61,107 nt of DNA, taken from positions 1 through 61,107 of the forward strand of contig JACCQO010000020.1 of the NCBI GenBank assembly GCA_015709205.1. The letters run 5' to 3'. A model generated the notes under the pieces. That model had not been told where the DNA came from. It saw nothing but the letters and a program-made list of their open reading frames with translations, and made no database searches. Origin of the DNA: Desulfovibrionaceae bacterium (GTDB lineage: Bacteria > Desulfobacterota > Desulfovibrionia > Desulfovibrionales > Desulfovibrionaceae). Positions 14,792-48,330 of the stretch are shown here, piece after piece (the first letter of the stretch is position 1; each line of letters opens with the position of its first letter). Both the position numbers and the translations under genes were made by a program.

Positions 14792-15475
14792 ATGGGATTC
14801 AATCCGACGACCACCAGGGAGCGCGTCTTTGTCGCCGCGATCGCCGTTTTTGCGGAAAAGGGCTTCAAGGGCGCCACGGTGCGCGAGATCTGCCGCCGTG
14901 CCGAGAGCGCGAACATGAACGCCGTGAATTACTACTTCGGCGGCAAGGACGCGCTCTACAGGAAGATCCTGCACATGATGTTCGCGGAGTTGGGCAACCG
15001 GATGCAGACGCTGGGCAGCGAGGACCGCTCCGTGGACCCGGAGCGACGGCTGTGCGACCTGGTGCGCTCCTACTGCGCCATGCTTTTTGCCGGCGGCAAG
15101 CCGGGCGCGGACAGCCTGGCCATCTTCAACAACGAGATGTCCCAACCCTCGGCGCTGCTCAACGAGCTCGTCGATGCCCATCTCGTGCCCCAGAACCGCG
15201 CCATCCTGGCCCTGTTCCGCGAACTGATGGGCGAGGACGCGCCCGAGTGGCTGCTGCGCGACTGCGCGGTGAGCGTCTTCAGCCAGGTCATGTACTACTC
15301 CACGACCTGGGTGATCTTTTCGCGGGTCAACCCGGACCACCCGGGCATGGCCGCGTACCACGAGCACCTGGCCGAACACGTCTGCCGCTTTTCCCTGGCC
15401 GGCATCCGGGAGATGCGGCGCGCCCACGCGGCGGGCGAACTGGCGCCGCCGGACGAAACGAGGAGGACGGAATGA
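14792..15475 (+). CDS. TetR/AcrR-family regulator, CecR-like
   Basis: A 227-residue one-component repressor. The N-terminal helix-turn-helix is clear (FAEKGFKGATVREICRRAES followed by MNAVNYYFGGKDALYRKIL). The C-terminal half (NEMSQPSALLNELVDAHLVP and HPGMAAYHEHLAEHV) resembles the CecR/YbiH group, whose ligands are small hydrophobic compounds. A palindromic operator candidate lies 24 bp upstream. Its stop overlaps the start of the acyltransferase gene in ATGA, so the two are translated together and the regulator most likely controls itself and that gene. Confidence 0.9.
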   Translation: MGFNPTTTRERVFVAAIAVFAEKGFKGATVREICRRAESANMNAVNYYFGGKDALYRKILHMMFAELGNRMQTLGSEDRSVDPERRLCDLVRSYCAMLFAGGKPGADSLAIFNNEMSQPSALLNELVDAHLVPQNRAILALFRELMGEDAPEWLLRDCAVSVFSQVMYYSTTWVIFSRVNPDHPGMAAYHEHLAEHVCRFSLAGIREMRRAHAAGELAPPDETRRTE

Positions 15476-16710
15476 AGACGGAGTATCCCCGTGTCGTGTT
15501 CCTGGACAACGTGCGCACCCTGGTCGTGCTGTTTGTGGTCGTGTTGCACGCGGCGTGCGCCTACGCCCAGATCATCCCCTGGTGGCCGGTGCAGGAATTC
15601 CCCAAGGAGCCGCCCTATTCCCTGGTGATCCTCTTTTTCGATCTGTTCTGCATGCCCGTGCTCTTCTTCGTCGCCGGGTATTTCGCGGTGCACTCCCTGC
15701 GCCGCCACGGGGCGGCCGGCTTCGTCGCGGCCAAGCTGCGGCGGCTCGGCGCGCCGCTGGTGCTGCTGGGGATATTCTACGTGCCGCTCATGAGCTACGT
15801 GGGATATCTGCGGCGCACGCCGGATGGCTGGGGCTTTTTCGATTTCTGGCTGTTCCAGCTTTCCACGGCCTGGAAACCCGGGTTCGTGCTCTTCGACTCC
15901 CCGGAGACGGCCCTGCCGCACGCCAACGATTTTTCCCAGTGGCACCTCTGGTTCATCTCGATGCTGCTGGTCTTTTTTCTGATCTATGCCGCGGCGGCGC
16001 GGTGCTGCGCAGGCGGCGAAGCCGGAGCGCGCGCCGGGGAACGGGAGGCGGCCCGCGGCGGCGAGGTGCTGCTTTCCCTGCTGGCGGCGGGCTGTGCGGC
16101 GGCCGTGGGCATCGCGGCCTCGAACATGGTCGTGCCGAACTGGGCCTGGGCCGGCGTGGGCGGCTATCTGATGTTCCAGCCCAGCCGGGTGGGGCTCTAC
16201 GCCGCGCTCTTCTGCCTGGGGTTGCTTGCCGCGCGGCGGCGCTGGTTCGAGCGCGGCGCCCTGCCCGGGCCGCTGTGGCTCTGGGGTGTGCTGGCGGTGG
16301 CGTCGAGCCTGGGGTTCATCGCCGCGGCCCGGCTGCTGATGGCGGCTCCGGGCCATGCGCCCGCGGGCCTGGCCCTGGCCACCGGAGGATTGCGCGCCCT
16401 GCTCGCCCTGGCCTGGCTGGTGGTGCTGCTCAAGGCGGCGCAACGCTGGTGGAACGCGCCGCGCCCGGTGTGCGCGGATCTGGCCCGCAGTTCCTACGAC
16501 ATCTTTCTGCTGCACCTGCCCCTGGTGGTGGGCCTGCAGCTCGCGGCCACGTTCCTGCCCGTGGACTTCGCGGTCAAGTTCGTCCTGGAATTCGCGCTGG
16601 GCGCGGCCCTGTGCTGGCTGCTCAGCCGCACGCTCGTCCGGCCGCACCCCACCCTGGCCGCCTGCGCGCTCCTGCTCGCCTTCCTGACCGCCTGTTTGGC
16701 CCTGCGCTGA
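15472..16710 (+). CDS. membrane acyltransferase family 3 protein
   Basis: A 412-residue integral membrane protein of the acyltransferase-3 family (OafA/OpgC type), which transfers acyl groups to envelope glycans or lipids. The typical N-terminus is LDNVRTLVVLFVVVLHAAC with the conserved His in the first membrane helix, followed by FFVAGYFAVHSLRRHG. About ten hydrophobic segments can be counted. A Gly/Ala/Arg-rich insert (about residues 178-200) interrupts the middle. AGGAGG precedes the ATG, which overlaps the tetR stop. The acceptor is unknown; the coupling to a CecR-like regulator suggests an induced envelope modification. Confidence 0.85.
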   Translation: MKTEYPRVVFLDNVRTLVVLFVVVLHAACAYAQIIPWWPVQEFPKEPPYSLVILFFDLFCMPVLFFVAGYFAVHSLRRHGAAGFVAAKLRRLGAPLVLLGIFYVPLMSYVGYLRRTPDGWGFFDFWLFQLSTAWKPGFVLFDSPETALPHANDFSQWHLWFISMLLVFFLIYAAAARCCAGGEAGARAGEREAARGGEVLLSLLAAGCAAAVGIAASNMVVPNWAWAGVGGYLMFQPSRVGLYAALFCLGLLAARRRWFERGALPGPLWLWGVLAVASSLGFIAAARLLMAAPGHAPAGLALATGGLRALLALAWLVVLLKAAQRWWNAPRPVCADLARSSYDIFLLHLPLVVGLQLAATFLPVDFAVKFVLEFALGAALCWLLSRTLVRPHPTLAACALLLAFLTACLALR

Positions 16711-16975: not shown

Positions 16976-17806
16976 CTACACGTCCGGGTCGCCGCCCTGG
17001 CGGACGGAGTTGGCTTCGTCGAAGGCGGTGTCGTCTTCGATGTCGCGGTCCTGCTGGCGGCAGAAGACGAGGAAGCCGGTGTGCGCGACCATGCGGTCTT
17101 CGGGGCGCAGCCGCTCGGGCACGGGCTTGTAGCGGCGCACGAGGATCTCCACGATCTCGATGCCCGCGAAGGGTCCGGCCTGCAGGGCGGCCACGAGGTC
17201 CTGGACCTGGTTGACGGTGGGTACGAGGAAGCCGAGGGACGCGCCCGGGGCCACGGCGGCGGCGGCCTGTTCCAGGTAGTCCCAGGGCGTGCGCACGTCG
17301 AGGAAGAGGGCGTCCGCGCCGGTCTGTTCGAAGCCCTCGGCGATGTCCTTGTTGAACTGCTCCACGTTTGCGCCCACGCCCGCCCAGTCCAGGTTGCGGC
17401 GGCAGAGCTTGAAGAATTCCGGGCGCGCCTCGTAGGTGTAGATGCGGCCGGTTTCGCCCGCGAAATAGGACATGGCCACGGTGAGCGAGCCGGAGCCGGA
17501 GCCCGCCTCGATGATGCGGCGGCCCGGGCCCACGCCGAGCTTGATACAGATGTAGCCGATATCCTTGGGATAGATGATCTGGGTCTGGCGTTTGACGCCC
17601 TTGACCAGGTCGTAGAGCGTGGGCTTGAGCAGCCGGTAGGGGCGGTCCATGTGCGTGCGCAGCGTCTGGCCGAAGCGCGCCTCGACGAGGTCGGCGGCGG
17701 CGATGTGGCCGTCGTTGGAGTGGAAGTCGCCGTCCTCGGCGACGCGGCGCAGGTAGCGCTTTCCCTTGGGGCTGATGAGCAGCACGAGTTCTCCGACCTG
17801 GGGCAT
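16976..17806 (-). CDS. trmI: tRNA (adenine-N1-58) methyltransferase TrmI
   Basis: A class I SAM-dependent methyltransferase that makes m1A58 in the tRNA T-loop; 276 residues, usual family length. The N-terminal beta domain (GELVLLISPKGKRYLRRV) leads to the Rossmann fold with IIEAGSGSGSLTVAMSYF (SAM motif I), IYTYEARPEFF (motif II) and DALFLDVRTPWDYL (catalytic motif IV). GFLVPTVNQVQDLV and MVAHTGFLVFCRQQ follow. The acidic C-terminal tail is short. GGAGGAG precedes the ATG at 17806. It is transcribed away from the cysteine-rich gene array. Confidence 0.93.
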   Translation of the reverse strand: MPQVGELVLLISPKGKRYLRRVAEDGDFHSNDGHIAAADLVEARFGQTLRTHMDRPYRLLKPTLYDLVKGVKRQTQIIYPKDIGYICIKLGVGPGRRIIEAGSGSGSLTVAMSYFAGETGRIYTYEARPEFFKLCRRNLDWAGVGANVEQFNKDIAEGFEQTGADALFLDVRTPWDYLEQAAAAVAPGASLGFLVPTVNQVQDLVAALQAGPFAGIEIVEILVRRYKPVPERLRPEDRMVAHTGFLVFCRQQDRDIEDDTAFDEANSVRQGGDPDV

Positions 17807-18033
17807 GGGCAATCTCCTCCCGAGATAGGCGAAGGGGGTAGCCGGAGCGCGGCGCGGTGTCAAGTGCGCGCGGCCCGCGCGGCGCTGCGGGCAAGGACGG
17901 GGCGGAAGGTTGGAACGATGCTTGCTGGGGCAGGGGAGACGAAGACGTTGCGCCAGGAAAGTTGGCATTTTGCGCCGGATGCCCTAAGAGATGTCGGATA
18001 GGTTTCCGGAATCGACAATGGGAAGGAGTGGTT

Positions 18034-18357
18034 ATGCGAGCGATGCGAATGCCGTGCGCCTGTTGCCTGCTGGCGGTCGGGTTGGCGCTGGCCTGGGGCA
18101 GCGGCGCGCGGGCCGGGGAAAAGCTTTTGGAATGCCGCGTCAAGGGCGAGAAGCCCCCGGTGGGCGAGGTCTATTTCGACCTGGCGAAGCATGCGGTCAC
18201 GCGCACGCTCAAGGACCCCACGGGCCCGGCGCGGGCCTGCAACGAGAAGTACCCCAACGCCTGCCACGGCGACTGCTGGGGCTGCGACAACCGCGCGGCC
18301 CGGAACGACGAGTGCTGGGACAGTGCGGGCGAGAAGCACGTGCCTTTCTGGGAATAG
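18034..18357 (+). CDS. secreted cysteine-rich array protein 1 (six Cys)
   Basis: First of nine paralogues in this array; 107 residues with a signal peptide predicted to be cut after GARA (27 | 28), leaving a mature chain of about 80 starting with Gly. The mature part has six cysteines: LLEC, then the family core CNEKYPNACHGDCWGC, then DECWDSAGEK. It lacks the extra C-terminal cysteine pair seen in other members and is closest to member 7 in its end (CWDS.G.K). There is no lipobox. GGAAGGAG precedes the ATG. Function unknown. Confidence 0.85.
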   Translation: MRAMRMPCACCLLAVGLALAWGSGARAGEKLLECRVKGEKPPVGEVYFDLAKHAVTRTLKDPTGPARACNEKYPNACHGDCWGCDNRAARNDECWDSAGEKHVPFWE

Positions 18358-18416
18358 CGCGGCAACCAACGACCGCCCGATGCCCGGGCGAAAAACGGAC
18401 GACGGGAGGTGTGGAC

Positions 18417-18749
18417 ATGAAGCGAACGGGACAAGTGCTGCCTTTTGTCGCGGTCCTGTGTCTGCTGGGCGCGGGGGCGGCCTTTGCCGGGAGCTCCCGG
18501 GTGGACATGCTCTGCCGTTGGAGCGGCGCGCAGGGCCACATCCAGGGCAAGATCGCGGTCGAGATGAATTTCTGGGGGCAGATTTCCAAGACGCCCAAGG
18601 AAGCCGTGGCGGAGTGCAACAGCAAGTACACCGAAGGCTGCCGGGAACAGTGCTGGGCCTGCCAGCAGAAACAGGGCGCGGACGCCGTCTTCAACACCTG
18701 CTGGGGGCCGAACGACCAGTGCATCGGCGCGGACTGCGGCAAGTGGTAG
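18417..18749 (+). CDS. secreted cysteine-rich array protein 2 (eight Cys)
   Basis: A 110-residue paralogue with a signal peptide ending AAFA (cut after residue 24) and a mature protein starting GSS. Eight cysteines: MLC, the core CNSKYTEGCREQCWAC, then FNTCWGPNDQC and GADCGKW. The C-terminal module FNTCWGPN-x-QC-x-GADCG is nearly identical to member 4, so these two are the most recent duplicates in the array. GGGAGG lies upstream of the ATG. The gap to member 1 is 59 bp, consistent with co-transcription. Confidence 0.87.
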   Translation: MKRTGQVLPFVAVLCLLGAGAAFAGSSRVDMLCRWSGAQGHIQGKIAVEMNFWGQISKTPKEAVAECNSKYTEGCREQCWACQQKQGADAVFNTCWGPNDQCIGADCGKW

Positions 18750-18897
18750 CGGTTCCGTCCGCGGCGGAGCCGTGCGGCCCACGGGACAAGCTCCGTGGCG
18801 CGGGTGCGGCGGCGTGCGGACGAAACGGAAGGACGGATGCCTCGTCGTCGGCGCATGGCGGCCGGGGCGAGGGGGAAATGCCATGAGGAGCGAAGCC

Positions 18898-19227
18898 ATG
18901 GAAACGATGCGAATGGGATTGCTCGCCGCAGTCGTCGTGGGCGCGCTGTTGGCGGCCGTCGGCGTGGCCGCCGCCGCCAGCAGCGACGTGGAGCTCAAGT
19001 GCGTGCGCAGCCGGGACAGCAAGGAGCTGGGCGCCGTCGCGGTGCGGCAGTCGTTCAGCAAGCAATGCACTCCGACCACCCGGGAAGCCGTTGCCCGCTG
19101 CAATGAAAAGTACGCCAACGGCTGCGAAGGGAGATGTTGGCTGTGTTGGAAGAAGGACAACAAATATTATGCCTGCTGGAAGCCGGATGGATCCTGCGAG
19201 GGCTCTTTCTGCAGCCAGTGCAAATGA
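18898..19227 (+). CDS. secreted cysteine-rich array protein 3 (ten Cys)
   Basis: The most cysteine-rich member: 109 residues, signal peptide ending in VAAAA (about residue 27), mature start SSDVELKC. Ten cysteines include an extra one in SKQC, the core CNEKYANGCEGRCWLC, then YACWKPDGSC and GSFCSQCK. It is also more basic than its neighbours. The ATG at 18898 is preferred over 18883 because GAGGAG lies 8-9 bases before it. Unlike the others, the mature protein probably does not begin with Gly. Function unknown. Confidence 0.83.
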   Translation: METMRMGLLAAVVVGALLAAVGVAAAASSDVELKCVRSRDSKELGAVAVRQSFSKQCTPTTREAVARCNEKYANGCEGRCWLCWKKDNKYYACWKPDGSCEGSFCSQCK

Positions 19228-19308
19228 TGGCCCGCCGGGGCGAACGGCGACGCCGTTGCCCCGTTCCGGAAAAATATCAACATATCCAAAGTGATGCGAG
19301 GTGGTGTA

Positions 19309-19650
19309 ATGAAGAATCGCATGTTCGGATCGGCCCTGGCCTCCCTGGCCGTACTGGTCGCGGTGCTGTTCGCCGGAACGGCCTTTGCCGGTGACAGCGA
19401 GCTGCAGATGCTCTGCAAGAAGGACATGGCCGGCACGCCGCTGGGCAAGATCATCGTGACGGTGAGCTTTGCGGACGGGCGCTCCATGAACACCGCCCAG
19501 ATGGTCCAGGGCTGCAACGAAAAATACCCGAACGAGTGCGCCGGCCAGTGCTGGGCCTGCCAGAACAAGGGCGGCGCGGACGTGATCTTCAACACCTGCT
19601 GGGGCCCGAACGGGCAATGCGTGGGCGCGGACTGCGGCGCCTGGAAGTGA
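19309..19650 (+). CDS. secreted cysteine-rich array protein 4 (eight Cys)
   Basis: A 113-residue paralogue with a signal peptide ending GTAFA (residue 27) and mature start GDSELQMLC. Eight cysteines: the N-terminal one, the core CNEKYPNECAGQCWAC, then FNTCWGPNGQC and GADCGAWK. The C-terminal half is almost the same as in member 2, while the region between the first Cys and the core differs more. An AGGTGG sequence lies before the ATG. The lnt gene begins 88 bp downstream in the same direction. Confidence 0.87.
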   Translation: MKNRMFGSALASLAVLVAVLFAGTAFAGDSELQMLCKKDMAGTPLGKIIVTVSFADGRSMNTAQMVQGCNEKYPNECAGQCWACQNKGGADVIFNTCWGPNGQCVGADCGAWK

Positions 19651-19738
19651 TGCCGGTGCGCCCGGCGCGCGGAACGCCGTGCGGCGGGGGCTTGGGCTGG
19701 CGCCCGGTCCGGCGTGGCGCCGCGGAGCAGGAGGAAGA

Positions 19739-21364
19739 ATGAACCGTTGGCGGCATTGGGCGGTCGGCCTTGCGGGCGTGGGGGCCGCGTTGGCGCTGCT
19801 GGGGCTGGTCACGCCGGGCCGTCCCTTGCCGTTGGCCGCGTTCGTGGCCCTGGTCCCGTTCCTGCTGGCCGTGCGCGGCGGGGGTGGCGGGAGCGGCGGC
19901 GAGTCGCGCCGGGCGGCGGGCCTGCGCGGCGCGGCGCTCGGGCTGCTCTACGGCGCGGGCTGCTGGTGGGTCTGGTCCGGCTACGTGCGCGCCGGGCTGG
20001 CCGCGTGGCACGGATTCGCGCCGCTGTGGTCCCTGGCGGGCATGGCCCTGTTCTGTGCCTGCAACGGCGTGCCCTACGCCCTGTTCGGGCTGCTGGCGGC
20101 CACGGCCCCGCAGGGCCGCCGCACCGGGCCCGTGCGCGACGCCCTGGTCTTCACGGCCCTGGTGTGCCTGTATCCCTCCTTCATTCCCGCCAACGTTTCC
20201 ATGGGGCTCTACCCGTATCCGGCGCTGACCCAGGCGGCGGCGCTGGGCGGTGCGCCGCTGTTGTGCTGTTGCGTGGCGCTGGTGAACGCGCTGCTGACCC
20301 GGGCCGTGGCCGCCGTGCGCGGGACGGGCGGCGCACGGGCCGCACTGCGCGCGGCCGGGGCGGCCGCGGCCGTGGTCGCGCTCATGGCCGCGGGCGGGGA
20401 GCTGCGCCTGGCCACGGCGCACGCGCAACTGGACACGGCCGAGGCCCGGGCGCGGACCTTTGCGCTGGTCCTGGTCCAGCCGGATTTTCCGCTGGATCCG
20501 TTCTTCCTGTTCGGCGGGGCCGGGGCGAACCACCTGGACGCGGTGTGGAACGCGACCCTGGCCGCGGCCCGGGCCCATCCCGAGGCCGGGCTGGCGGTCT
20601 GGCCCGAGGTGCCGCCGGACTTCGGTTGCGGCTGCGACGACGCCACGTCCGTGCCCCTGGTGCGCGAACTGGACCGCTCCTTCCTCTTTCAGTGCCTGGA
20701 CGAGGAGATGCCGGAGCACGCGGACCCGCAGGACGATGCGGTGCGCTACAACGCGGCGCGCATGGCGACCCCAGGAGGGTGCGGGCCCGTGTACCGCAAG
20801 CGGCGGCTGGTGCCCTTCGGCGAGACCGTGCCCGCGGGCGCGCCGGGCTGGGTGCGGCGTCTGCTGCCGGACGCGGGGCGCTTCGGCGCGGGGAGCGGGC
20901 CGGTGCTCATGGACCACGGCCCGGGCGCGCGGATCGGCGTGCTGATCTGCTACGAATCCTTTTTTTCCGGCCTGGTGCGCGCGGACGTGGCCGCGGGCGC
21001 GAACGTGCTCGTGAACCAGGTGGACGACGCCTGGTTCCATGGCCGCGCGGACGAGACGCATTTCGGGCTTTCGGTGCTGCGCGCCGTGGAGTTCGGCGTG
21101 CCCCTGGTGCGCGTGGGCAACGCGGGCGGCTCCGGCGCGGTCAACGCGGCCGGGGAGATCGTGCCCGGCTCGCGCACGGAGTCGGGCGCGCTGCAGACGC
21201 GGGTGGTGCGGGTCTGCGCCCTGCGGCTGCCCACGCCCTATGCGGCCTGGGGCGACTGGTTCCTGTGGTGCGCGGGCGCGGCGCTGGCTGGCGAGCTCGT
21301 TGCGCGGTGCGGCGCCGCGCGGCGCCGGCGGGCGGTCGATCCGGCCGGGCGGGGCCCGGCGTAG
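19739..21364 (+). CDS. lnt: apolipoprotein N-acyltransferase
   Basis: An inner-membrane enzyme that N-acylates the lipid-modified cysteine of apolipoproteins; 541 residues. The N-terminal half has about six to seven membrane segments. The C-terminal half is a periplasmic nitrilase domain with the full catalytic set: E290 in VWPEVPP, K354 in YRKRRLVPFGE and C404 in GVLICYESFF, with the family Tyr405-Glu406. GAGGAAGA precedes the ATG. It sits between members 4 and 5 of the secreted cysteine-rich array, in the same direction and 88 bp after member 4. None of the array proteins has a lipobox, so the link may be only positional. Whether this is the sole Lnt of the genome cannot be told here. Confidence 0.93.
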   Translation: MNRWRHWAVGLAGVGAALALLGLVTPGRPLPLAAFVALVPFLLAVRGGGGGSGGESRRAAGLRGAALGLLYGAGCWWVWSGYVRAGLAAWHGFAPLWSLAGMALFCACNGVPYALFGLLAATAPQGRRTGPVRDALVFTALVCLYPSFIPANVSMGLYPYPALTQAAALGGAPLLCCCVALVNALLTRAVAAVRGTGGARAALRAAGAAAAVVALMAAGGELRLATAHAQLDTAEARARTFALVLVQPDFPLDPFFLFGGAGANHLDAVWNATLAAARAHPEAGLAVWPEVPPDFGCGCDDATSVPLVRELDRSFLFQCLDEEMPEHADPQDDAVRYNAARMATPGGCGPVYRKRRLVPFGETVPAGAPGWVRRLLPDAGRFGAGSGPVLMDHGPGARIGVLICYESFFSGLVRADVAAGANVLVNQVDDAWFHGRADETHFGLSVLRAVEFGVPLVRVGNAGGSGAVNAAGEIVPGSRTESGALQTRVVRVCALRLPTPYAAWGDWFLWCAGAALAGELVARCGAARRRRAVDPAGRGPA

Positions 21365-21455
21365 GGGCGGCGGCGGCTTGGCATCGTCCGTGCAGTATTT
21401 GGGAAATGGAAATCGACATGCCAACGATGTTGGCGGAGTGCGATTCAGTCCTTTA

Positions 21456-21485
21456 TTGCACAACACCCTGGCAATACGCTAGATA
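21456..21485 (+). promoter_or_regulatory. putative promoter for the second half of the array
   Basis: TTGCAC (21456-21461), an 18-bp spacer and TAGATA (21480-21485) lie in the 253-bp gap after lnt, the longest gap in the array, 132 bp before the next gene. Confidence 0.4.
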
Positions 21486-21617
21486 GAGTGCCATGATGAA
21501 AAGGAAATGGACGCCGCCGCCGGTGGGGGGGCGCGTCCAGGGCTGCGAAGCCGGTATCGGCCGCCGGCGGGGGTCGCCCCATGGTGGGGCGGCAAGCCGG
21601 GGCCACAAGGAGAGAGT

Positions 21618-21974
21618 ATGGTCGGAATGCGGTTGGCGATGTGGATTTTGCTTGCCGCGATGCTGGCGGGACCGGGCGTTGCGTTGGCGGGTTCCTCCGA
21701 CGTCAAGCTCGCCTGCACCGTGGGCGACGGCACCAAGGCCGTGACGGAGAACAAGGCCGTCACCAAGGTGGGCTACGTGTGGGGCAAGGCCAGCGTCAGC
21801 GGCATGGAGAAACCCAAGACTTTGGCGGCCGCGTGCAACGAGAAGTACCCGGCGGACTGCAACGGCCAGTGCTGGGCCTGCAAGCAGTTCGACGAGCGCT
21901 GGCTGGGCATGAGCAACATGGGCTGCTACGATCTTGAAGGCGCCTGTCACGGCTGGTGCGGCCCGCCGTATTGA
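21618..21974 (+). CDS. secreted cysteine-rich array protein 5 (eight Cys)
   Basis: A 118-residue paralogue with a signal peptide ending VALA (residue 24) and mature start GSSDVKLAC. It has the longest gap between the first cysteine and the core CNEKYPADCNGQCWAC (about 38 residues). The end CYDLEGACHGWCGPPY matches the pattern of member 9 (CYDTQGRCHGICGSM). Eight cysteines in total. AAGGAG precedes the ATG. Function unknown. Confidence 0.87.
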   Translation: MVGMRLAMWILLAAMLAGPGVALAGSSDVKLACTVGDGTKAVTENKAVTKVGYVWGKASVSGMEKPKTLAAACNEKYPADCNGQCWACKQFDERWLGMSNMGCYDLEGACHGWCGPPY

Positions 21975-22039
21975 TCGCCGCGCCGGGTGGTTTGTGGTCT
22001 GGGCCAAGGGGGCGAACGTCATAGGAGGAGCAAACAACG

Positions 22040-22339
22040 ATGCGCAAGGAGATGGTCATTGCGGCGGCCGCGCTGGCGATTTGTCTGTGGGCCGGTGCGG
22101 CCCTGGCGGGCGGCGGCGGAAAGGACGCGCTGTACAAGTGCCTCAACGCCGCGACCCGGAGCCTGGTGGGCGAGGTCTACGCCTCGGGCGGAGCCTCGAA
22201 GAGGGAAATCGTGGAAGCGTGCGAGCAGAAGTTCCCCAACGGCTGCTCCGGCGGCTGCATGGGCTGCACGCAATTGCCCGCGACGAAGTCGTACATTTGC
22301 GAGGACGGCGCGGGCAACCAGGACATCTACAACGATTGA
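22040..22339 (+). CDS. secreted cysteine-rich array protein 6 (six Cys)
   Basis: A 99-residue paralogue, signal peptide ending ALA (residue 23), then a glycine run (GGGG) and KDALYKC. Six cysteines; the core is a variant, CEQKFPNGCSGGCMGC, with Phe for Tyr and Met for Trp. It ends SYICEDGAGNQDIYND, without the extra cysteine pair. It is closest to member 8, which shares FPNGCSGGCMGC. GGAGGAG lies about ten bases before the ATG. Confidence 0.85.
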   Translation: MRKEMVIAAAALAICLWAGAALAGGGGKDALYKCLNAATRSLVGEVYASGGASKREIVEACEQKFPNGCSGGCMGCTQLPATKSYICEDGAGNQDIYND

Positions 22340-22496
22340 TCGCCGGATGCGGGGCGCGCCGCTGTGCCGGGACGATGCCCCGGCGGCTCCCGCATTTCCA
22401 TGGATCCGGTAGAGGACTGTGCCGATAGTATCGCCGGTTGGGTTTCGAGCGTGGACGGAGCGTCTTGGGCCGAGCTGGGCAAACAAGGAGGCAGCA

Positions 22497-22862
22497 ATGG
22501 ACAAGACCCCGAGCCGTGCGATTTTCGGCATCGCCTTTCTGGCCGTGCCCCTGTTTTTGGCGGTCGCGTTGAGCGTCGCGGCATTCGATGCCCCGGCGTG
22601 GGCAGGGACCAAGAACCACAAGGTGGATTGCATCACGGGGACCGTCAGGAAGAAGGGCGACGGAACCATCGTCGGACGGATTTATGCCGAGGCCAAGGTC
22701 TGGTCGGGGGTGAAGGACACGAAGCAGCTCGCGGCGATGTGCAACGAGAAGTATCCCACGGAATGCGCCGAGGCCTGCGTGGCCTGCTCCGACTACACGT
22801 TCGACGTGCACGGGGGCGGGTGCTGGGATTCGACCGGCAGGAAAGTCGTCCACGGCTACTAG
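22497..22862 (+). CDS. secreted cysteine-rich array protein 7 (six Cys)
   Basis: A 121-residue paralogue with a longer signal peptide than its relatives (cut after DAPAWA, residue 36) and mature start GTKNHKVDC. Six cysteines: the core is CNEKYPTECAEACVAC, with Val in place of the usual Trp, followed by GGGCWDSTGRKVVHGY. The tail resembles member 1. AAGGAGG is ideally placed before the ATG at 22497. Confidence 0.85.
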   Translation: MDKTPSRAIFGIAFLAVPLFLAVALSVAAFDAPAWAGTKNHKVDCITGTVRKKGDGTIVGRIYAEAKVWSGVKDTKQLAAMCNEKYPTECAEACVACSDYTFDVHGGGCWDSTGRKVVHGY

Positions 22863-22994
22863 CGGACGGCCGACGGAATGCGTTGCCGCGACGGCGTGCT
22901 GCGGAAAACCGGATGCGATGATGCCCGCACGGGGCCGGGGTTGTCCCGTTGCCGGGGAGTGGAGTGAACCGTGTTGGGGGGCGAGGAGTCGGCG

Positions 22995-23282
22995 ATGCGC
23001 GGAATTCTGATTTCTTCAGTGTTGTTGTTGGTGTTGTCGGTGTCCGGGGTGGCGGTTGCCGGGGGCGGCGGCGATACGCTGTACCAGTGCCGCAACGGTG
23101 CGAGCAAGGCCGTGGTGGGAGATGTGTACGTCTCCGGCGGGGGCGGCGGGAAGGAGGCCGCGCAGGCGTGCACGGACAAGTTTCCCAACGGTTGCTCCGG
23201 GGGCTGCATGGGCTGCGGCAAGGTGGCCGGAGTATACATCTGCACCGACCGCTCCGGCGGCCAGGAAGTGGTCCAGGAGTGA
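22995..23282 (+). CDS. secreted cysteine-rich array protein 8 (six Cys)
   Basis: The shortest member, 95 residues, with a signal peptide ending VAVA (residue 22) and mature start GGGGDTLYQC. Six cysteines: the core CTDKFPNGCSGGCMGC, then VYICTDRSGGQE. It is clearly a sister of member 6. The ATG at 22995 has GAGGAG at good spacing; an in-frame ATG at 22971 would add eight residues without a better site. Confidence 0.85.
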   Translation: MRGILISSVLLLVLSVSGVAVAGGGGDTLYQCRNGASKAVVGDVYVSGGGGGKEAAQACTDKFPNGCSGGCMGCGKVAGVYICTDRSGGQEVVQE

Positions 23283-23338
23283 GGACGGAAACGGGCCCGC
23301 GGCCGCCGCGGCGGCGGGCCACGGAAAGGGAGGGAACG

Positions 23339-23665
23339 ATGCGGGAACGAATCGTGCGCGGCGTGCTGGCCCTGGTGGCCTGTGCGGTTCTGCTGGCCTC
23401 GGGCGGCGCGGCTCTGGCCGGGTCCAAGGACGTGACCCTGCACTGTCACAAGAACGGCAGGGGGACGCGCCTGGGCGGGGTGGACGTGACCTTTTCCTGG
23501 GGCGTGCCCAAGGACTCCAAGGCGCCCGCCCGGGAGTGCAACGAGAAGTACCTCAACGACTGCAACGGGCAGTGTTGGGGCTGCTCGCATTACGTGGACA
23601 CGGGCGGCATCGCCGACTGCTACGACACGCAGGGCCGTTGCCACGGCATCTGCGGCTCCATGTAG
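23339..23665 (+). CDS. secreted cysteine-rich array protein 9 (eight Cys)
   Basis: Last paralogue, 108 residues, signal peptide ending GAALA (residue 27), mature start GSKDVTLHC. Eight cysteines: the core CNEKYLNDCNGQCWGC, then ADCYDTQGRCHGICGSM. The tail pairs it with member 5. AAGGGAGGG precedes the ATG. A strong terminator follows 39 bp after the stop, closing the array. Confidence 0.87.
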   Translation: MRERIVRGVLALVACAVLLASGGAALAGSKDVTLHCHKNGRGTRLGGVDVTFSWGVPKDSKAPARECNEKYLNDCNGQCWGCSHYVDTGGIADCYDTQGRCHGICGSM

Positions 23666-23704
23666 GCCTGCGCGCACCGGTCCGGCGCGAACCGGAAATG
23701 GAAA

Positions 23705-23741
23705 ACGGGCGGCCCGGTTCTCCGGGCCGCCCGTTCTTTTT
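23705..23741 (+). terminator. intrinsic terminator of the cysteine-rich array
   Basis: A perfect 13-bp stem (23705-23717 with 23722-23734), a TTCT loop and a T-rich tail. It lies between the array and the convergent thi4 gene. Confidence 0.9.
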
Positions 23742-23756
23742 GCGGTTCGCAGGTCC

Positions 23757-24548
23757 CTAGCCCTTGAGCCGGGCCGCGATCTCCTCGGCGACCTTGACGC
23801 CGGACAGGAGCATGCCGCCGAAGACCGGGCCCATGCGGTAGGAGCCGAAGGTGGCGTTGGCCGCCATGCCCGCCACGTACACGCCCGGGAAGACCTCGCG
23901 CGTGTTCAGCGGCGTGTTCGCCTCCGCGATCTCGGCCCACATGGACTGTTCGCCCTCGATCTGGCCCGAGGGCGTGTTCAGGCGCACGTCGTTCTTGCGC
24001 ACCAGGGTCTTGAGCACTTCCACGGGATGGCCCGTGGCCTCGATGAGGAATTTGCAGCCCAGGGTCAGCGGGTCCACGTGCAGCCCGGCCAGTTCCACGG
24101 GGCTGGAGTTGATGACGATGCCCGTGACGCGCTTGACGTCCTCGACCTCGCGCAGGACCACGTCCTCCACGCTCATGCAGTTGAAGACCTTGACCCCGGC
24201 CAGGCAGGCCTTGGAGGCCAGGGTCGTGGTCGCGGCCACGGCGTCCACGGTGTAGTAGCCCTCGCCGTAGGGCTCGACGGCCAGGCCGACCTCTTCGAGG
24301 ATGTGGCGGCTGTCCTCCTGGACCACGATGAAGTTGTAGGTCATGCCGCCGCCCCACATGCCGCCGCCGAGGGACAGCTTGCGTTCGAACAGGGCCACGT
24401 TGAACCCCTGCCTGGCCAGATGGTAGCCCGCGGTCAGTCCCGAGGGGCCGCCGCCCACGATGGCCACGTCCAGGTCCAGGCTGGCGATGAACTTTTCGTG
24501 ATAACGGTCCAGAATGGCCTTGGTGACGGTGCGTTCGTCCAGTTGCAT
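23757..24548 (-). CDS. thi4: Thi4-type thiazole synthase (sulfide-dependent type)
   Basis: Makes the thiazole moiety of thiamine from NAD and glycine; 263 residues, FAD/NAD-binding fold. Marks are [18 protein letters not shown] (dinucleotide motif, residues 28-45), [16 protein letters not shown], and the C-terminal [20 protein letters not shown]. In eukaryotic Thi4 a cysteine gives up its sulfur in a suicide reaction. At that place this protein has His157 (AGLHVDPLT), as in the archaeal enzymes that use free sulfide and turn over repeatedly. That fits a sulfide-producing cell. No TPP riboswitch was seen upstream. AAGGAG lies 11 bases before the ATG. Confidence 0.93.
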
Positions 24549-25354: not shown

Positions 25355-26668
25355 CTAGAGCACGCCCAGCTTGGCGAGCGCGAAGCGCGCGGCCAGCAGC
25401 GTGGTCACGGCCAGGGCCGCGCCGCCCAGGACGTTGAGCGCGAGGCCGTTGGCGAGCCGCCCGGCCCAGGCGCGCGAGTTGAGCAGCACCAGCAGCAGCC
25501 CCAGAATCAGCGGGGTGCCGCACAGCCCCAGGGCGAGCATGGTCACCAGCAGCACCAGGAACCCGCCGTGGTAGAGCGGCCCGAGCAGGCTGACCAGGCA
25601 CCCGGCCAGCACGGCCAGCCGGAAGCGCCGGTCGCGCACCGAGGGCTCCCATCCGGCCGCGTCGGCCAGCAGGTAGGCCCCGGCCAGGTACGTGGGCGCG
25701 ATGGTCGTGACCACTGCCCCCCACATGCCCGCCAGGAACACCGCCCCGGCCCAGGGGCCCAGGAGCGGGCGCAGGGTCGCGGCCAGGTCGAAGGCGTTCT
25801 TGACCTCGGCGTGCAGCGGGTGCAGCACGGCCGCGCCGCACAGGAAGATGGCCACCGAATAGAGCCCGAAGGCCACGAGCATGGAGAGCACCGTGTCCGT
25901 GCGCGCCAGGGGTGCGTCCTCCACGGTCCAGCCGCGCGCGTTCACGGTGTAGGTGTGCATGGCGATGATCGTGATGTGCACGGCCCCGCCCATGATCCCC
26001 GCGCTCATCAGCGCGCCCGCGCCGCCGCCGGGCAGCGAGGGCACCAGCCCGGTCAGCGCGCCGGGCACGGACGGCGCGGCCACGCCCAGGGTGACCACGA
26101 AGCAGCCCACCACCACGGCCACCAACAGCTTGCAGAAGGTTTCCAGGGCCTTGTACCCGCCCACGCCCGTGAGCAGGTAGAATCCGGCCGCGTAGAGCAC
26201 GGGCAGCCAGGGCGCGTCGAACCCCGTGACCAGGGCCGTGACCGCGGCGAAGGCCTTGAGCAGCACGGCGGCCGCCAGCCACGTGCAGATCAGCGCATCC
26301 GCGAGCAGCACCCAGGCCAGGCCGCGGCCGAATCGCTCCCGGACCACGGCGACGATGCCCTTGCCCGCGATGATGCCCGCCTTGGCGGCCATGTACTGCG
26401 CCGTGCAGGCGAAGACCGCCGAGAGGACCACGACCCAGAGCAGGGCGTAGCCGTAGGCCGAGCCGGACATGGCCACCGAGGCCATGGTCGCCGGGCCGCA
26501 GGCCACGGCGCTGATGATCCAGGCCGGGCCCATGCGCGCCAGCGCGCCGTGCAGGGGGCCGCCCGCGGTCCGTCGCGCGCGGCGCGCGGCCGTGCCGGTG
26601 TCGCTGCGGCCGGGCGCCGTGGCGGCGGGGCCCGGAAGGCTGGAAAAGGCGAGGGAATCGGTGTTCAT
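25355..26668 (-). CDS. Nramp-like transporter with non-canonical metal site
   Basis: A 437-residue integral membrane protein with the Nramp fold layout (about 11-12 membrane segments). The first helix reads GPAWIISAVACGPATMASV, which aligns with the Nramp motif GPG...DPGN, but the metal-binding Asp and Asn are replaced (GPAT at 58-61). Helix 6 (IMGGAVHITIIAMHTYTVN) lacks the Met-Pro-His of manganese/iron transporters and keeps only a His. The substrate is therefore probably not Mn2+/Fe2+ by the usual site; Mg2+ or another solute is possible (inference). The N-terminal 45 residues are cytoplasmic and low in complexity. It precedes the P-loop gene by 11 bp. Confidence 0.82.
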   Translation of the reverse strand: MNTDSLAFSSLPGPAATAPGRSDTGTAARRARRTAGGPLHGALARMGPAWIISAVACGPATMASVAMSGSAYGYALLWVVVLSAVFACTAQYMAAKAGIIAGKGIVAVVRERFGRGLAWVLLADALICTWLAAAVLLKAFAAVTALVTGFDAPWLPVLYAAGFYLLTGVGGYKALETFCKLLVAVVVGCFVVTLGVAAPSVPGALTGLVPSLPGGGAGALMSAGIMGGAVHITIIAMHTYTVNARGWTVEDAPLARTDTVLSMLVAFGLYSVAIFLCGAAVLHPLHAEVKNAFDLAATLRPLLGPWAGAVFLAGMWGAVVTTIAPTYLAGAYLLADAAGWEPSVRDRRFRLAVLAGCLVSLLGPLYHGGFLVLLVTMLALGLCGTPLILGLLLVLLNSRAWAGRLANGLALNVLGGAALAVTTLLAARFALAKLGVL

Positions 26669-47556: not shown

Positions 47557-48330
47557 CTACTTGAGGACGCCTTCGAGCTTGAGGAGCTTGTCGAAGTCTT
47601 CCAGGGGCACCGCGCCGCCGACGACGACGCCGTTGACCACGAAGGTGGGCGTGCCGTTGATGTCGAGTTTCTTGGCCTGCTCCTTGTCCTTTTCCAGGAC
47701 CTTGGACACGGCGGAGGACTTGGCGTCCTTGGCGAGTTTCTTGGTATCCAGGCCGATCTTCCCGGCCTGTTCCAGGATCCATTTCTCGCCGTCCTTGGAC
47801 AGGGTCTCGCGGTCGCCGAACATGGCGTCGTGGAGTTTCCAGGCCTTTTCGGGGTCCTGGAGCATGGCGGCCTCGAAGCAGCGGGCGGCGATTTCGGCCT
47901 GGTTGTGCATCTTCAGGGGCAGGTGGTGGAAGGTGACGCCGACGCGGCCGGGATATTTGGCCATGAGTTCCTTGACCACCACGCTGCCGCGGCCGCAGTA
48001 GGGGCACTGGAAGTCGGAGAATTCGACCACCTGGATGTCGCCCTTGGCGTTGCCGCGCACGTGGCGGCCGGTCTGGTCCACCTTGACCGGGTTCTTGATC
48101 TGTTCCTTCCACTCCTCGATCATGGCGCGTTCGCGCCGGATGTTGGAGCCTTCCTGCACGATGCCCAGGACTTCTTCGCTGTGGGCGCGAAGCACGTCGA
48201 GAATCAGGCTCGGGTTTTCCTTGAGGATGGTTTCGAGCTGCGCCTTCATTTCGGCCTGGTCCGCGGCCGGTGCGGCCATGGGCAGGAGCAGGGCGATGCA
48301 GCAGAGGCAGAGAATGCGGCGGATGGACAT
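47557..48330 (-). CDS. DsbA-family thiol-disulfide oxidoreductase
   Basis: A periplasmic thioredoxin-fold protein of 257 residues with a signal peptide ending PMAAPAA (about residue 23). A helical N-terminal extension (about 25-80) leads to the catalytic CPYC at 109-112 (FSDFQCPYCGRG) and the cis-proline loop NGTPTFVVNG. The layout (helical arm plus one thioredoxin domain) is that of the DsbA/BdbD/ScsC-like group. It could oxidise or isomerise exported proteins. AGGAGG precedes the ATG. It lies downstream of tolC on the same strand but behind a terminator. Confidence 0.92.
   Translation of the reverse strand: MSIRRILCLCCIALLLPMAAPAADQAEMKAQLETILKENPSLILDVLRAHSEEVLGIVQEGSNIRRERAMIEEWKEQIKNPVKVDQTGRHVRGNAKGDIQVVEFSDFQCPYCGRGSVVVKELMAKYPGRVGVTFHHLPLKMHNQAEIAARCFEAAMLQDPEKAWKLHDAMFGDRETLSKDGEKWILEQAGKIGLDTKKLAKDAKSSAVSKVLEKDKEQAKKLDINGTPTFVVNGVVVGGAVPLEDFDKLLKLEGVLK

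Follow-up and report, generated by a model that had tools for sequence, protein, structure and literature searches.

Nine neighbouring genes for diversified cysteine-rich proteins, predicted to be exported, in a Desulfovibrionaceae genome

What might a bacterium gain from keeping, side by side, nine short genes for cysteine-rich proteins that share a small common core and differ strongly outside it? The question is raised by a locus at 18034..23665 of the window, by which we mean the whole 61,107 nucleotide stretch analysed here (Desulfovibrionaceae bacterium, GenBank assembly GCA_015709205.1, contig JACCQO010000020.1, positions 1 to 61,107 of the forward strand). A first-pass annotation made from the letters of this DNA had described an array of co-directional genes, each encoding a signal peptide and a cysteine-rich mature chain, and had ascribed it to local duplication under diversifying pressure. 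The work described here adds an unnamed family of predicted exported proteins, whose members are diversified and occur in tandem in several lineages within a single phylum, and the reading that we favour, at a probability of roughly 0.4, is that the array would encode one exported scaffold with diversified surfaces that serve in recognition or inhibition.

All nine genes lie on the forward strand and start with ATG, and their third-position G+C is 0.80-0.91. They run from gene 1 at 18034..18357 (107 residues, of which 80 in the predicted mature chain), gene 2 at 18417..18749 (110 and 86), gene 3 at 18883..19227 (114 counted from 18883, and 83) and gene 4 at 19309..19650 (113 and 86) to gene 5 at 21618..21974 (118 and 94), gene 6 at 22040..22339 (99 and 76), gene 7 at 22497..22862 (121 and 85), gene 8 at 22995..23282 (95 and 73) and gene 9 at 23339..23665 (108 and 81). 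A codon-based gene caller returns the same nine frames and differs only in the start of genes 1, 3, 5 and 8, for which 18043, 18898, 21627 and 22971 are the alternatives. The predicted mature chains are thus 73-94 residues long and carry, in the order of the genes, 6, 8, 10, 8, 8, 6, 6, 6 and 8 cysteines. When each mature chain is scored against a profile built from the other eight it reaches 46-75 bits, against 7-15 bits for the best of 1000 shuffles of each chain, which rules out that the frames are artefacts or chance, and the description of nine co-directional genes for small cysteine-rich proteins is in this respect confirmed. The word array needs some qualification, as the series is interrupted between genes 4 and 5 by a gene of the apolipoprotein N-acyltransferase (Lnt) family at 19739..21364 of the same strand, leaving two groups of genes with gaps of 56-157 bases inside them, and a tenth, divergent member of uncertain start lies elsewhere in the same genome (contig C84, 23541-23861, E 1.1e-9).

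The core C-x2-K-[YF]-x3-C-x3-C-x2-C is found in nine of nine proteins, and across them six cysteines, one glycine and the core lysine are invariant. By eye, each has the N-terminal charge, hydrophobic core and AxA-like site of a signal peptide, and a rough signal-peptide detector marks all nine, though not the tenth member, so that the products are predicted to be exported. The first cysteine stands 6-10 residues into the predicted mature chain in all nine, a slightly narrower range than the 6-11 given earlier; with the predicted cut at AxA and no lipobox, a lipoprotein reading was rejected. Pairwise, 47-78% of the aligned residues differ. Local duplication as the source of the array holds good, with genes 6 and 8 as a well supported sister pair (98/99 and 100/99 in two trees; 53% identity) and, less surely, genes 2 and 4 as another (94/14 and 92/80; likewise 53% identity), and the DNA of the pairs 2/4 and 6/8 is visible as the repeats D2 and D3.

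With a narrow profile the family appeared to be confined to one genome, as only the window's own genome matched among 289 of its family and 349 of its order. This impression of an orphan was overturned by way of the cysteine pattern: a degenerate DNA pattern of the core, run over the genomes of GTDB, gave 102 stretches, three of which encode exported relatives, from an uncultured delta-proteobacterium (L025, 50 bits), the metagenome-assembled genome (MAG) UBA7527 (L030, 47 bits) and a Syntrophorhabdus MAG (L095, 40 bits). The next stretch scored 22, and the other 99, at 22 bits or less, were taken from score and frame as chance. Two further profiles were then in use, A4, which adds these three relatives, and A6, which is wider still. 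A4 matches ten of 60 genomes around the Syntrophorhabdus MAG at E<=1e-3, that MAG and UBA7527 included; A6 matches eight of 395 across the phylum, the window's genome included, two of them weakly (G460, 6.4e-4, and G631, 9.9e-4, partial matches that we do not count as carriers), two of 60 around a further carrier, G718, itself included, and among the 80 genomes nearest to the window's only the window's own. Because only the top candidates of each genome were scored in the large searches (16, 13 and 11 per genome in those of 289, 349 and 395 genomes), absences there are the weaker. Counting once those genomes that recur with the same contig and place, there are 14 carriers (G000, which is the window's genome, G349, G350, G351, G353, G354, G356, G370, G372, G373, G385, G386, G718 and G789), so that relatives were found in 13 other genomes and in none of the other genomes of its own family of 289. 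Those carriers whose kinship is given belong to three families of one phylum (f1, f59 and f21), and the spread is patchy. A back-translated peptide search of genome contigs gave 21 stretches, and two alignments run on viral contigs gave 3 and 32 pattern stretches, none of which was confirmed; tblastn found nothing in plasmids with one query or in phages with another.

Tandem copies also occur elsewhere: UBA7527 has four within 2 kb, and G353, G370 and G372 have at least two each, which by eye sit among other small secreted proteins. Nine small exported neighbours of relatives were scanned and one Pfam family, that of pentapeptide repeats, came over the cut-off. In three relatives of the Syntrophorhabdus MAG (L165, L166 and L167) the family stands beside an exported protein of about 240 residues with an internal repeat, as judged by eye, and a cysteine-containing one of about 125 residues; the small exported neighbours scanned in L165 gave no Pfam family over cut-off. 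Three much-alike and even more cysteine-rich relatives were seen in three genomes (L132, L141 and L144), with pentapeptide-like frames, again by eye, near the latter two. A copy in G351 (L128, contig C178, 21763-22065) is degraded, with three stop codons, which points to turnover within the family. In L181 (7860-12884) third-position G+C is 0.31-0.47 in the genes around the relative and 0.57-0.78 in most of those farther away, a contrast that hints at an acquired island; L183 is mixed.

For a comparison of cysteines and for trees we used 27 of the about 37 members seen, leaving out the degraded copy, the three divergent and much-alike relatives just mentioned, two cut or odd frames of L139, L142 for its odd end, a weak third frame in L165 and the members of L170 and L184; a second tree was made also without three long branches (W1, W7 and L136). 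The family falls into a short form with the six-cysteine core, consisting of the nine together with L140 and L143, and a long form with an extra block that bears four more cysteines. The short form lies on one side of a branch with support of 89/87 and in 87% of 200 bootstrap trees in the second tree (76/91 when the long branches are kept), and the trees do not separate the nine from L140 and L143 as a clade of their own.

Four columns counted as core cysteines are filled in 27 of 27 members, and the remainder vary mostly as sets. Two members lack both column 79 and column 94 (phi 0.80), columns 104 and 109 are found together in nine, 104 never without 109 (phi 0.79), and the quartet of columns 4, 33, 47 and 50 is complete in 16 members and wholly absent in 11, whilst gene 3 alone carries one further pair. 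An even number of cysteines is found in 23 of the 27 chains, related rows that allow no true p-value, so that the earlier statement that the counts are always even is right for the nine and does not extend to the wider family. This gain and loss mostly in twos and fours suggests disulfides, and the array proteins are probably disulfide-bonded; the proposal of disulfide-bonded secreted proteins thus gains comparative support, the bonds themselves being read from the cysteine pattern. A look at the host's own background was of little help: 16 exported-like proteins lacking CxxCH, some of them clearly false, in 310,418 sampled bases have 1.03 cysteines per 100 residues against 1.58 in soluble ones, and with five even, nine odd and two zero counts show no even bias in a sample too small to use.

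Structure prediction, likewise called for earlier, covered one protein of each form. The AlphaFold2 model of gene 4 is a beta-beta-alpha-beta-beta domain (mean predicted local distance difference test score, pLDDT, 79; predicted template modelling score 0.66) with strands at 29-37, 44-53, 82-86, 94-98 and 104-106 and helices at 62-72 and 74-77, and block means of pLDDT over residues 31-110 are 75-97. Columns 79 and 94 correspond to C84 and C97, on the neighbouring strands 82-86 and 94-98, and judging by these strand ranges the two would face each other. A model of the long form (mean pLDDT 80) keeps this order of elements and adds a hairpin (strands 50-53 and 58-61) that, with positions counted by hand, bears or borders three cysteines of the quartet.

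Taken together, the favoured reading is of nine exported, soluble and probably disulfide-braced miniproteins that would share one small beta-beta-alpha-beta-beta scaffold, in which the cysteine framework, the G-x-V strand and the K-Y helix may form the fixed part and the loops and surfaces vary from copy to copy. Each copy might bind a partner of its own, whether periplasmic or extracellular, and serve as a recognition, inhibition or decoy element in contests with other organisms or phages; it would then pay to keep many variants side by side. Export, a fixed framework, a variable surface, tandem copies, patchy spread and the small exported neighbours of relatives fit modules of recognition or inhibition better than one enzyme or a store.

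Several points weigh against this reading. The diversifying pressure proposed earlier is not borne out, the ratio of nonsynonymous to synonymous change (dN/dS) in the two closest pairs, 2/4 and 6/8, being about 0.68 and 0.62; dN exceeds dS in 12 of 36 pairs, at near-saturation, and near-saturation together with a third-position G+C near 0.9 makes dS compressed and unreliable, which leaves no ground for claiming either strong constraint or positive selection. The cysteine sets have their exceptions, all confined to four members: L125 has column 94 without 79, and three members, each with a cysteine at column 93, have column 109 without 104. An odd number of cysteines is found in four of the 27. 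Comparisons of fold gave no match that would explain a function, and Foldseek against the PDB returned 87 matches at E<=10 and none at E<=0.001; sermetstatin, a secreted protease inhibitor, recurs among the matches with a root-mean-square deviation over 12 A and was given no weight. The flanking genes scanned included no recognisable partner, immunity gene or dedicated exporter, no sigma-70-like promoter was found in 17700-24000, and the Lnt-like gene has no role in this account. Finally, in the seven of the 14 carriers covered, some of them incomplete MAGs, neither DsbB (PF02600, none of seven) nor VKOR (PF07884, none of seven over cut-off, with one sub-threshold hit of 21 bits in G372) was found, where the same searches of control genomes found DsbB in six of 14 and VKOR in three of 14; disulfides in these carriers would therefore need another oxidant.

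This last result would also fit cysteines that stay reduced. In a strict anaerobe that lacks the usual oxidants, thiol-rich proteins on the cell surface could bind metals there, or cap metal sulfides, the number of copies then being a matter of capacity, and to this would fit the high cysteine content (8.9% of the nine mature chains, 12.8% of 18 other members used), the all-or-none quartet, which behaves as a four-ligand site would, and a gene for an Nramp-type metal transporter nearby on the opposite strand (25358-26668). We consider this explanation unlikely, as cysteines vary also in the pairs 104/109 and 79/94, histidines number only 0-4 per chain in the nine, and the core itself is not kept: its C-x3-C becomes C-x4-C in two of 27 members (L030_a and L136) and its last cysteine is absent in three (L125, L030_b and L030_c). 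With neither spacing nor ligands invariant, a [4Fe-4S] or other fixed metal site in C-x3-C-x2-C is disfavoured, and so is a c-type cytochrome or other haem binder, for the residue after the core C-x2-C is never histidine in the nine and none contains CxxCH; to this extent the earlier suggestion of metal or haem scavenging is weakened. A further point on this side is an exported DsbA-like thioredoxin encoded in the window itself (47560..48330, reverse strand; PF01323, 9.3e-25), with a CPYC site and a GTPTF that we read as the cis-Pro loop, which at 24 kb from the array may be regarded as a candidate oxidant for its products.

According to a paper of 2025 (PMC12453122), cysteine tends to be kept out of the exported proteins of obligate anaerobes, VKOR is in use among aerobic delta-proteobacteria, and some organisms have a DsbA-like protein but no partner for it. 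By their affiliation (Syntrophorhabdus; Desulfovibrionaceae) the carriers would be strict anaerobes, and predicted exported proteins with 9-13% cysteine in presumed anaerobes in which DsbB and VKOR were not detected (the seven carriers) stand in contrast to the trend described in that paper; either there is another route of oxidative folding there, or the cysteines serve something else. The boldest extension of the recognition reading is that strict anaerobes having neither DsbB nor VKOR retain whole arrays of exported proteins with many disulfides and let them diversify, that a DsbA-like protein folds these and passes its electrons on by an unrecognised route, and that the arrays would be a variable repertoire of recognition miniproteins on an undescribed fold; in this full form we think it doubtful. 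The oxidant question, the relatives in other lineages and the Lnt-like gene inside the array were all missed by the first-pass annotation.

The Lnt-like gene raises a different explanation, in which the nine are structural proteins of the surface or matrix and belong to a set of envelope genes. It reaches 150.9 bits with TIGR00546 against a cut-off of 132.9, contains the CN_hydrolase and LNT_N domains and ends 253 bases before gene 5; by the curated cut-off it is a member of the Lnt family, its reaction being a prediction. Upstream on the same strand is a gene for an Acyl_transf_3 protein (15472-16707), though a TrmI-like tRNA methyltransferase gene on the opposite strand (16979-17968) lies between it and the array. 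Lacking a lipobox, the array proteins should not be acted on by Lnt, and reading stretches around relatives by eye showed no Lnt next to them, so that we hold an envelope gene set to be quite improbable. The genome's best-scoring Lnt, a much better one, is on contig C48 (295 bits), and the gene within the array is an accessory copy; besides these two, Lnt-like genes over or near the cut-off were seen on contigs C84 and C20. On contig C20 there is also a small exported protein with eight cysteines in a different pattern (L196, 10159-10470, reverse strand, the same as L187, 18159-18470), with a borderline match to the family profile (E 5e-3) and no Pfam family; by eye its neighbours include parts like those of type III secretion, among them what we take to be a SycD/LcrH-like tetratricopeptide repeat chaperone.

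Directly after gene 9 there is a terminator-like stem with a T-run on the forward strand (23704..23735; 14 pairs, 12 of them GC). Terminator-like sites in 17700-24000 number three where 4.0 would be expected by chance; this stem has twice the length of the other two, one of which lies inside it, and since the only long one follows gene 9 the array may form one transcription unit. Beyond it the reverse-strand genes, which encode Thi4, the Nramp-type transporter, an IF-2B family protein and GatB, are ordinary.

The absence of other genes from within the series bears on a last alternative, that of secreted toxins, antibacterial or contact-dependent, whose diversity would be aimed at a range of rivals. 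Such toxins could well be small, exported, cysteine-rich, tandem and diversified, as these proteins appear to be, and in one relative (L167, 11530-16378) genes like those of a TolC, MacA, MacB-ATPase and MacB-permease exporter directly follow an array, as read by eye. Nothing save the Lnt-like gene alternates with the nine, so that no immunity partners are seen, and no toxin or defence family comes over the cut-off in Pfam or NCBIfam; typical antimicrobial peptides are cationic, unlike the array proteins with their net charge of -2 to +5. A toxin array therefore seems to us a poor bet, and an exported scaffold with varied surfaces the better one.

It remains to compare the family with known ones. 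The earlier statement that it has no name stands: no family came over its curated cut-off in Pfam or NCBIfam for the array proteins or the other members scanned, and by sequence the PDB held no related chain (best E 6.4 and 1.7). A set of 24 members was scanned with NCBIfam, PHROGs and PADLOC, and gave as the best PHROGs match phrog_27678 (0.014, one of 24) and in PADLOC only stray matches to DrmC (0.0091) and Cas3 (0.019), one member each. A match of gene 8 to the PtrA-like NF041599 (E 9.5e-4, 19.1 bits against a cut-off of 31) covers residues 7-31, the signal peptide, and one of PagP to a single member (0.0042) is below threshold; both were set aside, as was the PHROGs match. By title or abstract no paper on such a family was found in a search that does not reach most subscription journals. 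The anti-CRISPR AcrIF9 (PDB 7c78, 6vqv, 7chr and 7bb5) is counted among the close comparisons, with the fold as the point compared.

The nearest cysteine-rich model is TIGR04117, Syntroph_Cxxx, the Cys-Xaa-Xaa-Xaa repeat radical SAM target protein, which like the array proteins is small and rich in cysteine. Gene 2 reaches 15.0 and gene 5 9.3 bits against a cut-off of 50, the other seven not being listed, and one of the 24 members scanned matches at E<=0.1. By eye, radical-SAM-like genes lie near relatives in L025 and L165, and no radical SAM protein was found among the flanking proteins of the window that were scanned; the array proteins differ from this model in having no run of C-x3 repeats. 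Disulfide-rich secreted miniproteins, of which defensins and small protease inhibitors are familiar families, offer the more general comparison. Whilst no relation in sequence, nor a clear one in fold, was found between them and the array, they are alike in the export signal, in a kept framework of cysteines with varying surfaces and in tandem duplication.

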